From a virus, in IMG/VR virus record IMGVR_UViG_3300042691_009717, positions 1 through 36,833 of that record: 36,833 nucleotides of DNA. One strand, given 5' to 3'. The translations under genes were made by a program, and so were the position numbers. A model generated the notes under the pieces. That model had not been told where the DNA came from and searched no databases. It worked only from the letters and a program-made list of their open reading frames with translations. Positions 49 to 35,682 of this stretch are shown here, piece after piece. Position 1 is the stretch's first letter; every line of letters begins with the position of its first letter.

Positions 49-92
49 GTTAGTAGGTAGTTAGCGGTAATTGCACCCCACCGCACAGTTAG
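49..92 (-). repeat. Degenerate attC-like palindrome downstream of the 89-481 gene
   Basis: Three copies of GTTAG (starting at 49, 60 and 88) surround a short stem GCGGT/ACCGC (64-68 and 80-84). The CTAAC on the leftward strand includes the TAA stop of the upstream gene. It looks like a reduced member of the palindromes lying between the neighbouring leftward genes. No U-tract follows, so a terminator is less likely. Weak on its own. Confidence 0.35.
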
Positions 93-522: not shown

Positions 523-585
523 ACTAACCGCTAACACAGTATTTGCGCCATTAAAACGAGCGCAAATACCCGTCCGTTAGGTGCA
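523..585 (-). repeat. attC-like imperfect palindrome between small genes
   Basis: A perfect 10-bp stem GTATTTGCGC/GCGCAAATAC (539-548 and 560-569, 11-nt loop) is nested inside CTAAC (531-535) and GTTAG (576-580), with unequal spacers. A second CTAAC begins at 523. The arrangement of core-like pentamers around an interrupted stem resembles folded integron attC sites. There is no T-run, so it is a poor intrinsic terminator. It lies downstream of the 619-900 gene. Confidence 0.6.
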
Positions 586-618
586 ATAAAAAATAAATTT
601 CCCACCGCACCCGTACTA

Positions 619-900
619 TCAAGCATCCTTCTTTTTAATAACATCATCCAAATCAATTCCAACAGCATCAGCAAATTTTCTAAGCATTGCCATTTTCTCC
701 TCAATTTCGCAATTAGGCTCGTTGTTCTTTTCGTCATACTCTTTTGCTCGTTTAAGCAATGCTTTCATTTCCTCTACTTCCTTTTTGAGTGCTTCAAATT
801 CTGCTCTGCTCACATCAGGAATGTTAGTGAAAATTTGCTGATAAGGTGGCTGTTTCCATTTGTCATTAAAGTGGTCGCCAATCATTGATACTGTACACAT
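619..900 (-). CDS. Small phage accessory protein (93 aa), coiled-coil
   Basis: The N-terminus (MCTVSMIGDH then W and PP) resembles small conserved proteins I associate with phage accessory regions, though I cannot name a characterised family. The middle (residues about 30-70) is a strongly charged helix with heptad character, followed by a short helical tail ending in lysines. It is leftward, with its own palindromic sequences on both sides. No catalytic motif is visible. Likely cytoplasmic; role unknown. Confidence 0.75.
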   Translation of the reverse strand: MCTVSMIGDHFNDKWKQPPYQQIFTNIPDVSRAEFEALKKEVEEMKALLKRAKEYDEKNNEPNCEIEEKMAMLRKFADAVGIDLDDVIKKKDA

Positions 901-951
901 TTTGTTTAATTATTAGAGTTAAGCCCACGCTAAATTTATTTTTTACAGACA

Positions 952-1051
952 CCTAACAGCAGGTAGGCAAAATGCCGCTATGAGCCTGAGTGCTTTGATA
1001 TTTACATTTGTGGTAAGCGGCACTATCGCCTACCTGCAAACCGTTATAAGC
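952..1051 (-). repeat. attC-like palindrome, 100 bp, best preserved copy
   Basis: Two nested stems are separated by an asymmetric spacer: GCAGGTAGGC/GCCTACCTGC (959-968 and 1028-1037) and TGCCGCT/AGCGGCA (973-979 and 1016-1022). They are flanked by CCTAAC on the left and GTTATAAG on the right. Read on the leftward strand it begins TATAACGG and ends TGTTAGGTG; GTTAGGT fits the GTTRRRY core of integron recombination sites. It follows the stop of the 1057-1257 gene, as an attC follows its cassette gene. Confidence 0.7.
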
Positions 1052-1056
1052 AATGC

Positions 1057-1257
1057 CTACGGACGTTTTACATCATCCCAATTTGGAATAAAGTAACTCC
1101 ATCGCATCGGCATAGGTATTGCTAAACACTTTTGCCTATTTTTATTTTTAACCATACAAGTATATCCTTCGTATAAAACAGTATCACCAATTTTAAAATC
1201 GGCACTGCTTATAACAGCAGGTTGCTTCAATGGCTTAGTTTCGTTCTTCTTTGACAT
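1057..1257 (-). CDS. Hypothetical small protein (66 aa)
   Basis: A short basic N-terminal segment (MSKKNETKP) precedes a compact region containing FKIGDTVLYEG, a pattern seen in small SH3-like or KOW-like beta barrels. The C-terminus is rich in W and P. No catalytic residues are apparent. It is in a leftward cassette-like position: ATG after an A/T-rich leader, stop, then a long palindrome. Its function is unknown and the SH3-like reading is only suggestive. Confidence 0.7.
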   Translation of the reverse strand: MSKKNETKPLKQPAVISSADFKIGDTVLYEGYTCMVKNKNRQKCLAIPMPMRWSYFIPNWDDVKRP

Positions 1258-1333
1258 ATTTTCGTTTATTTAAAGTTTGTAATTCTAATTAAGTTTATCG
1301 GTTAAGGTCGCCAATAAAGCAACCTGCGAAACG

Positions 1334-1579
1334 TTAGTGGCAAGTTGCATCGCCCATCCAAACAGCTTTCTCAATATCTAACCGCATACGCCATTGCATT
1401 TTTACGGTTGTAGTTTTCATAAAGTCTTTTTCTTCAACCAAAGTAATTATATCGTCAGTAAGTTGGCGTATGCTTGCTTCGTACTTTTGTTTCATCTTTT
1501 GGTAAGAAGACAACCTGCCACTAACATCGGTTTTGCGTAATGCCTTCTTTGGTGCTTGTTTTGAACTTTTGTTTTTCAT
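1334..1579 (-). CDS. Basic coiled-coil hypothetical protein (81 aa)
   Basis: The first 20 residues are lysine-rich. The middle (residues about 25-60) is a charged helix with heptad spacing, followed by MQWRMR and a short tail. No known domain is recognised. The TAA stop lies within a CTAAC word. The 76-base gap downstream contains only a weak palindrome (AGGT/ACCT and TCGC/GCGA), unlike the stronger ones beside other genes in this block. Probably an accessory protein of unknown role. Confidence 0.65.
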   Translation of the reverse strand: MKNKSSKQAPKKALRKTDVSGRLSSYQKMKQKYEASIRQLTDDIITLVEEKDFMKTTTVKMQWRMRLDIEKAVWMGDATCH

Positions 1580-1602
1580 ATCAACTTTTGTGGTTTATTG
1601 AG

Positions 1603-1650
1603 CATTAGTTTTTCAATTACGGCACTAACGCAAAGCCGTTTACCGTTATC
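1603..1650 (-). repeat. Short attC-like palindrome
   Basis: The stem ACGGC/GCCGT (1619-1623 and 1635-1639) is flanked by CATTAG on one side and CCGTTATC on the other. On the leftward strand it starts GATAACGG, matching the left end of the copy at 1990-2080 and close to the TATAACG of others. Shorter than its relatives and possibly a decayed site. Confidence 0.4.
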
Positions 1651-1657
1651 GGCAACC

Positions 1658-1948
1658 TTAAGACTGCAACTTTGAAACAGTTTTGCTAATCATTGAAGTC
1701 ACCAACTCTTTCACATCATCGGTGAAAAAAGTACAAGCACAAAATGTAGTGTCGTGTCCATCGTACTGATATGTACTTCTAAGTTCTTTAAAGTGTCCAA
1801 GCGGATAAATTATCCATCCAGTACCTTCACACTGTTTACATTTTGGGTCTGGATTATGTTTTGAACTTGGGTGCAAGTTTGGCAACTGTGTAAGAGTTAC
1901 GTTCTCTTTTTCAGCTTTCATCTTAAAAAATGCTTCTGGTCTTTTCAT
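1658..1948 (-). CDS. CxxC zinc-knuckle hypothetical protein (96 aa)
   Basis: The centre carries CKQCEGTGW, which matches half of a DnaJ-type CxxCxGxG zinc motif, and a second cysteine pair, CAC, about 30 residues later. Together these could bind one zinc ion. The N-terminus is basic and helical, and the C-terminal 25 residues form an amphipathic helix. Similar CxxC-G-W proteins are common small phage accessory genes. Leftward, followed by a short palindrome. Specific function unknown. Confidence 0.7.
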   Translation of the reverse strand: MKRPEAFFKMKAEKENVTLTQLPNLHPSSKHNPDPKCKQCEGTGWIIYPLGHFKELRSTYQYDGHDTTFCACTFFTDDVKELVTSMISKTVSKLQS

Positions 1949-1989
1949 TATATTTTTGTATTTAATTGATAATCTAATAAAAGGCAGCC

Positions 1990-2080
1990 GATAACACGCA
2001 ATATAAAAAAATTGGCTATCAAACTGCTGTGGTAAATTGAAAGTGACTGCAAAGCCAACTTTTCATATTGCCACCGTTAC
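1990..2080 (-). repeat. attC-like palindrome, 91 bp
   Basis: Nested stems GCAATAT/ATATTGC (1998-2004 and 2065-2071) and TTGGCT/AGCCAA (2012-2017 and 2053-2058) are separated by unequal spacers. They are bounded by GATAAC and GTTAC. The geometry matches the copy at 952-1051 although the stem sequences differ, which is the hallmark of attC-type sites, where structure rather than sequence is conserved. Confidence 0.6.
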
Positions 2081-2088
2081 CTGCAAGG

Positions 2089-2313
2089 CTACCATTCTGC
2101 CTTCTCATCGTTCCTTATGCTTTTAAGACCGTGAACAATTCCCATTGCGCCAACAGTCAGCCAAGAGCCACTACTAAGTAAAATTGAGAATGCCCTATCT
2201 CCTTTTGTCCACTCTCTGTGATAGTTATTATTCATTAAATTAAATTTTGAGTATTGATAACCGCAAACACACCCAATCAAATAAATTGCTAATACTAAAA
2301 TTGTTTTTTTCAT
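2089..2313 (-). CDS. Small membrane protein with two predicted TM helices (74 aa)
   Basis: Residues 4-19 (around LVLAIYLIGCVCG) form a hydrophobic N-terminal helix or signal anchor. A second hydrophobic segment spans roughly 43-62 (around SSGSWLTVGAMGIV). A short charged loop separates them and a charged tail follows. It presumably sits in the inner membrane. Leftward, with a 91-bp palindrome after the stop. Function unknown; small membrane proteins of this size occur in superinfection exclusion and as accessory cassette products, but nothing here decides. Confidence 0.7.
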   Translation of the reverse strand: MKKTILVLAIYLIGCVCGYQYSKFNLMNNNYHREWTKGDRAFSILLSSGSWLTVGAMGIVHGLKSIRNDEKAEW

Positions 2314-2326
2314 TTCGTTTTTAAAT

Positions 2327-2524
2327 TTAAGTTCCTACTGATAAACCGCCCGAAAACGTTAGCTTCAATCTTTCTTTTAATGCTTTAATAACTTCTTTAT
2401 CTTTACAATCGGTTGTTAGTTTCCCTTTTTCAAAAGAGTAGGAATATACCTCACCCCCATTTGTTTTAAAAAGTCCATGTATTGTACCATCTGACTTCTT
2501 TATCTTCTTTATTGCTTTAATCAT
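2327..2524 (-). CDS. Hypothetical small protein (65 aa), first gene of the leftward block
   Basis: A small basic protein with alternating hydrophobic residues (VYSYSFEKGKL) suggestive of a beta hairpin, then a helix (KEVIKALKERLKL). No family recognised. It is the promoter-proximal gene of the leftward block: a TATTTTTG box lies only about 5 bases before its ATG, implying a very short 5' leader. The 13-base gap to the next gene lacks the palindromes seen further along, so these two may form one unit. Confidence 0.7.
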   Translation of the reverse strand: MIKAIKKIKKSDGTIHGLFKTNGGEVYSYSFEKGKLTTDCKDKEVIKALKERLKLTFSGGLSVGT

Positions 2525-10387: not shown

Positions 10388-10585
10388 ATGAAATACCAAG
10401 CAGAAGAAAAAGGATTAGAAACTCAAATAAGAGAGTTAGAAACCACCATTTTAAAAAAGGCAGAACAATACGCTCACAGGTTAAAAATAAACCATGTAAA
10501 CACAGAGGACTTGAATAAAGAAATCGGTGATTTAATGAAAACAATGAGAAATAAAACAAGGGAACTTTGTAGTATGTATAAGTAA
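10388..10585 (+). CDS. Coiled-coil hypothetical protein (65 aa), cassette-like
   Basis: Almost entirely helical and charged (KGLETQIRELETTILKKAEQ, then a second helix about 38-60). The TAA stop lies in TAACG, the left end of a 91-bp palindrome, exactly as a cassette gene runs into its attC. Promoter-like box and A-rich leader upstream. Function unknown. Confidence 0.7.
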   Translation: MKYQAEEKGLETQIRELETTILKKAEQYAHRLKINHVNTEDLNKEIGDLMKTMRNKTRELCSMYK

Positions 10586-10673
10586 CGTTTTGGGGCTTTG
10601 CGTAGTAGCCCTTAGTAGTAACTTAAATTAACCACGACACTTGATAGGGCTATTACGCAAAACCCTTCTTATG
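10583..10673 (+). repeat. attC-like palindrome, 91 bp, rightward
   Basis: A 15-bp arm TTTGCGTAGTAGCCC (10597-10611) pairs with GGGCTATTACGCAAA (10647-10661) with one mismatch around a 35-base loop. TAACG overlaps the upstream stop codon at the left end. The right core-like word is degraded (CTTATG instead of GTTA). There is no terminator-like T-run directly after the stem. It fits the palindromes at 523-2080 in geometry. Confidence 0.6.
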
Positions 10674-10692
10674 TGCCTTTTTTATTCGCAAG

Positions 10693-10899
10693 ATGAAAGT
10701 AGAAACGAAAAAGATATTGAAGGAACAAGGAAAACTTGACCTTTACACAGATGAACGATTTGAGCAAGTGAAAGCCATAATGAAACACGGAATGACCAAA
10801 GATGCTTGGTTAAAGAATTATTTGTCATTAGACCCACTAAATAAGGCTCAATGGTGTGCAGACCACTTGGTCAAGTTTGTTGAAGGTGGTCATTTATAA
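10693..10899 (+). CDS. Hypothetical protein (68 aa), cassette-like
   Basis: A charged helical protein (KKILKEQGKLDLYTDERFEQ) with a W- and H-containing C-terminal part (QWCADHLVKF). It is enclosed by two palindromes of the same geometry, each with core-like words, so gene plus downstream palindrome makes a unit of about 320 bases, typical of an integron cassette. Base composition is slightly richer in G and C than the flanking phage genes. Function unknown. Confidence 0.7.
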   Translation: MKVETKKILKEQGKLDLYTDERFEQVKAIMKHGMTKDAWLKNYLSLDPLNKAQWCADHLVKFVEGGHL

Positions 10900-10904
10900 T
10901 GGCA

Positions 10905-10996
10905 TATAACGTTGAGGCGGTTGGCGATGTGCCACTTCAACGGACAAAATTGATACACGCACTATCCTGTGGCATATTGCCAACCGCTTGTTATAG
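10905..10996 (+). repeat. attC-like palindrome, 92 bp, rightward, well preserved
   Basis: TATAACG at the left and GTTATAG at the right enclose GCGGTTGGC/GCCAACCGC (10917-10925 and 10979-10987) and TGCCAC/GTGGCA (10930-10935 and 10969-10974). A 4-base spacer on one side faces a 4-base AT-rich spacer on the other. The order of elements equals that of the 952-1051 copy. A third GCGGTTGGC occurs at 11015-11023, before the next gene. Confidence 0.7.
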
Positions 10997-11588: not shown

Positions 11589-11999
11589 ATGAAAATTACA
11601 GAGTTAAGAATTGGGAATTGGGTTGAACAAACCGAACACAAAGAGTCAGGTATGCCGTTTAAAAAACACATTCAGTTTAGCGAATCTAACTGGTATAGAA
11701 TGGGGGATTGTGTTGAGTATGAAGAAGATTTTGAACCCATCACCCTAACAGAAGAATGGTTAGTTAAGTTTGGTTGGGTTTGGAATAAAGAAACAAACTC
11801 TTATGAAAAATATCCCAATGGAGATGCAAGGATGCACTTAGAATATAGACCATTAAATGGGTCGTATAAAATGTTTAATTATGTTTTAAAAGCATTAATT
11901 TGTGAAAGAATTTGGTACGTCCACCAACTTCAAAACCTTTTCTTTGCATTAGCAGGAGAAGAATTGTTAATAACAAATAATAAAACAAATAAGCAGTAA
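11589..11999 (+). CDS. Conserved Bacteroidota phage protein of unknown function (136 aa)
   Basis: The opening ELRIGNWV, the middle FEPITLTEEWLVKFGW, and the end VHQLQNLFFALAGEEL form a pattern I recognise from many Bacteroidota phage and prophage genomes, with no assigned function. The N-terminal half is beta-rich, with W residues; the C-terminal region is helical. It lies just upstream of the sigma-like gene. Confidence 0.75.
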   Translation: MKITELRIGNWVEQTEHKESGMPFKKHIQFSESNWYRMGDCVEYEEDFEPITLTEEWLVKFGWVWNKETNSYEKYPNGDARMHLEYRPLNGSYKMFNYVLKALICERIWYVHQLQNLFFALAGEELLITNNKTNKQ

Positions 12000-34932: not shown

Positions 34933-35682
34933 ATGATAAACAGACTTTACTTTGACATTGAAACTTCCCCTTGTTTGGGGTGGTTTTGGAGGCCATCTTA
35001 CCAAACAAACCTAAACCACAAAAACGTAATTGAACAGGCAAAGATAATTTGTATCTGTTATAAATGGGAAGGCAAAGATAAAGTCTATCATTTAACATGG
35101 GATTCAAAACAAAACGATAAAAAGATGCTTCAGGACTTTGTAAAGGTTCTTGATTCAGCAGATGAAATAGTAGGGCATAACTCAGATAAATTTGATATAA
35201 AGTGGATAAGAACAAGATGCTTATTCCATAATGTAGGCATGATGCCTGATTATAGCTCATTAGACACGTTAAAAGAAGCACGTAAAGGGTTTTTATTCCC
35301 TTCTAATAGATTGGATGCTATTGGACGTTATACAGGCGTAGGAAAGAAAATAAAGACAACTGAGGAACTTTGGTTTGACGCTTGGTATAAGAACTCAAAA
35401 AGGGCATTAAATGAAATGGTAAAATATTGCAAGCAGGACGTTTTATTATTAGAAGAGGTACACCAAAAACTTAAACCTTACACGAAAATTAAAACAAGGG
35501 TACAAACAGATATAACCGTATGTGGTGCTTGTGGTTCTGATGACTTAAGAATACGTAAATATTCAATCTCAAAAGAGGGTTCAAGGTTTGCTCACTATCA
35601 ATGTCATGGATGTGGAATGTATCACAAGGTTAACGATAATAGATATACGTCGAATTTAAAAGCTAAACAAGGGTTAAAATGA
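34933..35682 (+). CDS. DEDDy-type 3'-5' exonuclease with C-terminal zinc ribbon (249 aa)
   Basis: Exo I is LYFDIETSP (D8, E10), Exo II GHNSDKFDIKWI (D85 or D88), and Exo III is VKYCKQDV (Y165, D169), giving a DEDDy RNase H-like exonuclease. The C-terminal part has two CxxC pairs (C197-C200, C224-C227), a zinc ribbon likely for binding nucleic acid. It could degrade host or linear DNA, or proofread or aid recombination. Late location is unusual for such a nuclease. A-rich AAACAAACAA leader. Confidence 0.85.
   Translation: MINRLYFDIETSPCLGWFWRPSYQTNLNHKNVIEQAKIICICYKWEGKDKVYHLTWDSKQNDKKMLQDFVKVLDSADEIVGHNSDKFDIKWIRTRCLFHNVGMMPDYSSLDTLKEARKGFLFPSNRLDAIGRYTGVGKKIKTTEELWFDAWYKNSKRALNEMVKYCKQDVLLLEEVHQKLKPYTKIKTRVQTDITVCGACGSDDLRIRKYSISKEGSRFAHYQCHGCGMYHKVNDNRYTSNLKAKQGLK

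Follow-up and report, generated by a model that had tools for sequence, protein, structure and literature searches.

The left part of a 36.8 kb Bacteroidota phage genome very probably contains a CALIN, an integron-type cassette array that lacks an integrase, in which the palindromes between the genes are attC sites. This genome is the window (the whole stretch of DNA analyzed, 36,833 nucleotides), and it encodes a terminase, a portal, an Erf-like annealing protein and NinG, as well as a DNA polymerase exonuclease subunit and a holin-like gene. The array comprises seven leftward ORFs at 89–2524 with a palindrome between most of them (Table 1), much as an earlier note on this DNA had described. 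A CALIN is recognized as at least two attC sites close together with no intI, and in the window there are five sites in 1.6 kb and no match to TIGR02249 or PF00589. There being no integrase in the genome, this is not a complete integron, and the earlier note was right that neither an integron integrase nor a Phage_integrase-family gene is to be seen in the window. There are no convincing Pfam matches for the cassette genes of the window, searches of the window for tRNA genes and Rfam families gave none, and a scan of it for sigma-70 promoters and terminators gave no signal above shuffles.

Position of the array in the phage genome

The array lies at an edge of the contig, its first gene is cut off and no integrase is seen, all of which would fit a left end made of host chromosomal integron DNA beside a prophage, or a chimeric assembly. 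However, the two ends of the window (36833/1) close into a single open ORF of 32 aa (MKTITVSNTYEV up to the join and LNSKFVHDIELTELKTECPF after it, followed by the stop codon), so the array is internal to the phage and not at the edge of its genome; the record is probably a complete, circularly permuted genome, although it is classed as linear. Reading across the join, the exonuclease gene is followed by another rightward gene, two or three small leftward genes and the attI-like core, and past this are the seven leftward genes and, beyond a divergent intergenic region, the early genes, which run rightward. An array between the exonuclease and divergent early genes is also what is found in the virulent muminviruses and in L177 and L333, and its genes are reversed relative to those of chromosomal arrays. 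A chromosomal or chimeric origin of the left end is thus extremely unlikely.

Table 1. Array features, the flanking exonuclease gene and the second group of sites in the window.
Feature	Coordinates	Strand	Evidence and remarks
Putative attI-like first site, core CCGCTAAC/TACC	57..66	-	predicted cut near 61/62 on +; L333/L334 homology stops here
Cassette gene 1, 130 aa	89..481	-	ORF; 100% protein identity in L333/L334
attC-type site, short hairpin, 52 nt (atypical)	530..581	-	scan 33.5; R1 E=0.0045, outside training set; fold z=-4.2
Cassette gene 2, 93 aa	619..900	-	ORF
attC-type site	952..1048	-	scan 48; R1 E=2.5e-10; fold z=-3.5
Cassette gene 3, 66 aa	1057..1257	-	ORF; start codon within site 1210-1338
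attC-type site across start of gene 3	1210..1338	-	scan 39.5; R1 E=5e-13
Cassette gene 4, 81 aa	1334..1579	-	ORF; start codon within site 1520-1650; stop TAA overlaps next core
attC-type site across start of gene 4	1520..1650	-	R1 E=1e-15; 71% DNA match to Flavobacterium muminvirus arrays
Cassette gene 5, 96 aa, cysteine-rich	1658..1948	-	ORF; 84% identical copy in viral contig L335
attC-type site	1990..2081	-	scan 37; R1 E=1e-4
Cassette gene 6, 74 aa	2089..2313	-	ORF
Degenerate attC-type site inside genes 6/7	2256..2363	-	R1 E=0.06 only
Last leftward gene before divergent intergenic region, 65 aa	2327..2524	-	ORF; homologue at matching position in L177
attC-type site, 3′ core degenerate	10581..10673	+	R1 E=2.4e-8, outside training set; fold z=-3.3
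Single cassette gene between two sites, 68 aa	10693..10899	+	ORF; no Pfam match
attC-type site	10905..10995	+	R1 E=1.1e-6, outside training set; fold z=-4.3
Exonuclease gene flanking array across circular join	34933..35682	+	PHROG 403 E=2e-60; synteny with L161, as in muminviruses

Identification of attC-type sites

A mechanical scan for TAAC and GTTA words with an anchored stem between them found the five minus-strand sites at 530–581, 952–1048, 1210–1338, 1520–1650 and 1990–2081, with scores of 33.5–48. Dinucleotide shuffles gave 0.43 matches per region with a maximum score of 29.5, and the sampled rest of the phage did not exceed 29.5. Relatives were fetched by way of their Erf, terminase and exonuclease genes, and a scan over 3 Mb of these loci yielded 69 distinct sites, which almost always occurred as several on a single strand of a single locus. 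In attC sites, the core words RYYYAAC and GTTRRRY bound an imperfect palindrome of variable sequence. The phage sites have such core words, some of which depart from the strict form (e.g. GTTATC), and their consensus is TAACG (66 of 69) at one end and TGTTA (68 of 69) at the other, of which the G and the T were not imposed by the scan. In an alignment of 54 phage sites there are compensatory changes in 16 of 21 pairs, such that structure is conserved over sequence.

A covariance model, R1, was built from the 54-site alignment. It recovers all five scan sites in the window (E values from 1e-15 to 0.005) and adds the two plus-strand sites and the degenerate 2256–2363 site (Table 1); of the seven main window sites, four were in the training set and three (530–581 and those beginning at 10581 and 10905) were outside it. 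R1 finds no sites in P12002S, a sister of the experimentally tested Polaribacter phage P12002L, or in Cellulophaga phi12:1. The attC-like reading offered in the earlier note is borne out by the strong covariation and by a site family common to chromosomal integrons. Its list of palindromes is confirmed, with five sites found by both the scan and R1, but the two that it had described as weaker rank with the strongest and extend across the start of the following gene. Folded as single-stranded DNA, as the note had proposed for each site, the window sites have z values of −4.3 to −0.8, with long loops weakening z for the ~130-nt sites.

Palindromes between co-directional genes, forming hairpins in the 5′ leaders as RNA and with strong conservation of base pairs, could also belong to a leftward operon as transcription terminators or regulatory RNA hairpins, with the resemblance to attC coincidental. 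However, there are no T-tracts and no terminator-like sites in 1–2700, in agreement with the earlier note's view of the palindromes as poor terminators. The TAACG/TGTTA cores are moreover invariant, and whole units are gained and lost exactly at the core (see below); the same sites also occur in chromosomal arrays by integrase-like genes, with the genes on the other strand, where they could not serve as such RNA. We consider an RNA function highly improbable as the explanation of the palindromes, although they may have a secondary RNA role.

Gene orientation relative to attC

In a canonical gene cassette the gene is on the attC top strand and the attC is at the 3′ end of the gene. The bottom strands of attC sites (e.g. 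aadA1 and VCR) run 5′ to 3′ from TAACG to TGTTA, and crossover is between the A and C of the bottom-strand AAC. The coding strand of the phage arrays has both of these bottom-strand properties, the TAACG and TGTTA ends and the position of crossover, with unit boundaries in isolate phages at TAA/C. Against a class 1 integron and a Vibrio cassette array, R1, which is a coding-strand model, gives full-length matches only on the strand opposite to the genes, and these are weak (E of 0.26–4). Because the coding strand corresponds to the attC bottom strand, each palindrome is 5′ of its own gene.

The phage cassette is an attC plus the predicted gene downstream of it, reversed relative to chromosomal cassettes, and with the start codon in or just after the attC. 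The earlier note had taken the unit to be a gene plus the palindrome following it, which we do not retain; on the coding strand it is the 5′ end of the palindrome that carries the crossover core. Our own first reading was likewise the canonical order, with the palindrome after the gene, until the position of the junctions, on the 5′ core, led us to abandon it. In phage arrays the longest ORF between sites is on the R1 strand in 71 of 75 intervals, whereas in chromosomal arrays it is opposite to the R1 strand in 42 of 45 (Fisher p=5e-24, with gene strand called by longest ORF and the chromosomes drawn from one bacterial order). All five scored intervals of the window have the gene on the bottom strand and the attC at its 5′ end, and so depart from the canonical cassette. 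Among the cassettes of three isolates, 17 have their start codon inside the attC and 23 have it no more than 50 nt beyond, and the TAA of TAAC often doubles as the stop codon; genes 3 and 4 of the window also start inside their own attC.

Cassette gain and loss in Baltic Flavobacterium phages

A blastn search with the array led to isolated Baltic Flavobacterium phages (Muminvirus, Lillamyvirus and Hattifnattvirus), which have a leftward array of about 10–17 sites in the same place beside the exonuclease gene. There are 171 R1 matches in 126 kb of 14 isolate phages, on one strand throughout. These arrays are related to one another, and the gain and loss series comes from such relatives, not from near-identical copies of the window. 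Nearly identical isolates can differ by entire units. One example is a 506-bp unit of mumin6-1 that mumin6-3 does not have, with a junction ambiguity of 7 bp, TAACGTT. Similarly, snork6-2 is without a unit of snork9-1, at the first core, and sniff9-2 without a unit of sniff9-1. Over all pairs of the 14 phages, 85 of 94 distinct homology breaks lie, in both genomes, no more than 12 bp from a TAAC core, where 4.7% of positions would do so by chance; the 85 are not independent events, as the phages share ancestry and breaks recur between pairs. An attI site is a single core at the head of an array, adjoining intI, into which new cassettes are inserted. Thirty-one breaks are at the first, attI-like core, which is single and has no adjoining intI, and whose conserved motif, TAAC/TAC, is found at the same array end in L177, Mumin, L187, L193, L183 and L237. 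The cores used for this analysis were those of the covariance model, and a stricter first site list had left many junctions unexplained. About five of the nine off-core breaks sit on the opposite core (R″) of a site, which is what rarer top-strand events would be expected to give.

The location of the breaks on the TAAC core indicates that these sites are where whole cassettes are gained and lost. The earlier note had proposed comparing related phages, and held that a lack of covariance hits, or a fixed gene order with non-compensatory stem changes, would speak against it; what we find instead is compensatory change in the stems and units gained and lost at cores. Homologous or single-strand-annealing recombination between similar palindromes, for instance by the phage Erf and with no integrase, might have a similar outcome, and we note that the window phage encodes an Erf-like annealing protein, that the sites are partially similar to one another, and that a few breaks are inside or at the far end of sites. 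However, the breaks cluster on a 4–7 bp core at one end of mostly dissimilar ~130-bp sites, where annealing would be expected to switch at random, and new units also enter at the attI-like core, which has no palindrome. Annealing is therefore quite an unlikely account of the gains and losses.

The cargo of the isolate arrays is mostly DNA methyltransferases and small proteins, and this abundance of methyltransferases suggests that the array is probably an anti-restriction store. Phages lillamy9-1 and morran9-1 plated poorly on LMO6 until grown there (PMC7077304), a study that reports a specific methyltransferase as missing and ties methyltransferase differences to plating efficiency on LMO6. 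Both phages are without a methyltransferase cassette that is carried by sniff9-1, snork9-1, mumin and filifjonk, and we infer, making a link not drawn in PMC7077304, that the low plating on LMO6 may be tied to this particular cassette. In some Baltic phages the exchanged unit includes the divergent promoter region (L176 9459–9937 and L171 9216–9224), because the final site of the array is overlain by the first of the rightward genes.

Cassettes of the window in other phages

The segment 60–536 of the window, containing gene 1, has 97% DNA identity in L333/L334, a phage with otherwise different cassettes and an exonuclease only 74% identical to that of the window. The common stretch runs from TAAC near 61 to TGTTAGC at 536, so that the boundary at the 530–581 site is on its other core (R″, 536) and not on the usual one. 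Sharing of this piece amid differing cassettes shows single-cassette exchange in the window itself, with the 5′ break at the R″ core. The relative of gene 1658–1948 in L335 has no neighbouring R1 sites, and a DNA search of plasmids and phages with the array gave mostly unrelated methyltransferases.

Chromosomal counterparts

Relatives of a methyltransferase cassette of mumin6-1 occur in bacterial bins, where they too are inside such arrays. One of them is on a contig that is itself phage-like, in a bin of the Chitinophagales (L262 954–12840); it has roughly 12 attC sites and numerous cassettes for DNA methyltransferases, both N6/N4 and C5, and this array adjoins ribonucleotide reductase genes, one with an intein-like segment, and a homing endonuclease is also present. 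In the order to which this bin belongs, R1 has matches in 88 of 150 genomes, to sites of the same type and with scores up to 113 bits. An IntI-like recombinase is encoded in 56 of the 150 and is beside arrays in several (L286, L287 and G116:C3). The two recombinases examined score 208–223 bits with TIGR02249, for which the cut-off is 265, and nearly equally with a XerA-like model, and we therefore call them, with caution, 'IntI-like'. In L286 (5559–6692), L287 (7747–8880; both 377 aa) and L322 the integrase-like genes point the same way as the cassettes, an inverted integron layout that would be missed with the standard cut-off.

The chromosomal integrons of this order (L286, L287 and L322) have the same attC family, core asymmetry and attI–attC geometry as the phage arrays. 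They differ in that the chromosomal genes are on the attC top strand, pointing away from attI, and there is an IntI-like gene, whereas in the phages the genes occupy the bottom strand and are directed towards the attI-like end. A distinct phage-specific recombinase that uses attC-like sites, and is not an integron integrase, might explain why the reversed orientation is peculiar to phages and why they have no IntI, but there is no candidate tyrosine recombinase in 12 phages and the sites are of the same type as those beside chromosomal IntI-like genes; we regard such an enzyme as unlikely.

A model for cassette exchange

The site family, its covariation and polarity, the gain and loss at cores in relatives, the gene reversal and the absence of an integrase can be read from the sequences themselves. 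We suggest that recombination at AA^C in the coding-strand TAAC (the attC bottom strand) would bring cassettes in, remove them and exchange one for another, with the attI-like end near 57–66 as the putative main insertion point. No Phage_integrase-family gene was found in the window, nor in a further 11 phage records with arrays, among which are four complete genomes of isolates, and with no tyrosine recombinase in the array phages the enzyme would most likely come from the host. A host integron integrase might then act in trans on single-stranded phage DNA during infection, and the array would probably serve to keep anti-restriction genes, and others for host takeover, in exchangeable form. 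On balance we favor the view that Bacteroidota phages keep their own pool of reversed cassettes, in which attC is a 5′ leader, the stop codon is often over the crossover core and the attI-like end is the point of entry. Host integrases would shuffle cassettes between infecting phages, virulent phages would swap anti-restriction methyltransferases singly, and a reversed cassette would occasionally enter a chromosomal integron.

Integrons are usually regarded as bacterial tools; here, integrase-less virulent phages carry large arrays that differ by whole cassettes between co-located sister isolates. They are a natural system, and one amenable to culture, in which to ask whether the genomes of infecting phages are rearranged by host integrases, and offer a mechanism for the fast gain and loss of anti-restriction genes. 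The reversed orientation shows that phage and chromosomal cassettes are largely separate pools despite having one attC type, which bears on the origin of cassettes.

Relation to known cassette arrays

Class 1 integron attC sites and Vibrio VCRs share with the phage sites the cores, the palindromic bottom strand with TAACG 5′ and TGTTA 3′, and the AA^C crossover, but are distant in sequence and have the opposite gene orientation. CALINs in virulent phages (including TJE1, P12002L and PH101) have been reported by Qi et al. 2023 (PMC9892861), whose main text describes recombination of five of six tested phage attC sites with attI1 through IntI1, and the emphasis of the earlier note on how unusual a phage-borne array would be is therefore too strong. 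As presented there, these CALINs are, like the window array, attC clusters without an integrase, some with DNA methyltransferases, but they are short, whereas the present arrays are large and in a widespread Bacteroidota phage group. The main text of that paper has no gene reversal, attI-like end or gain and loss between sister phages, and Flavobacterium phages are absent from it, although they might be in its supplementary list of 17 CALINs. The Baltic muminviruses (Nilsson et al. 2020, PMC7077304), which are isolated and virulent, have the same array position and sites as the window; in their description the array was not recognized as cassettes, and attC and integrons are unmentioned. In the open-access literature we found no report of reversed phage cassettes or of muminvirus attC beyond Qi et al. 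2023. Phage CALINs are thus already known, and it is the reversed architecture and the natural exchange of cassettes that look new.

A second mini-array and other observations

Far from the main array, the window has a two-site mini-array at 10581–10995 on the plus strand, with one small gene and the same reversed architecture. Within the main array, the decayed site at 2256–2363 overlaps one gene at its end and the following gene at its start, and is possibly a frozen old cassette boundary. The right arm of an attC is translated into the N-terminus of the gene at 1334–1579 in the window (...KTDVSG) and of L161 5426–6268, and such attC-encoded N-termini give unrelated proteins a similar tail, e.g. 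KTDVS[RG]. Among the exceptions to the chromosomal gene orientation, two are clear reversed, phage-type cassettes in otherwise canonical arrays, at L326 2681–3420 and L330 6253–7652. Judged from sequence, one of these reversed chromosomal genes resembles an LRIGN family, also found at 11589–11999 in the window, and the other appears to be Fic-like.
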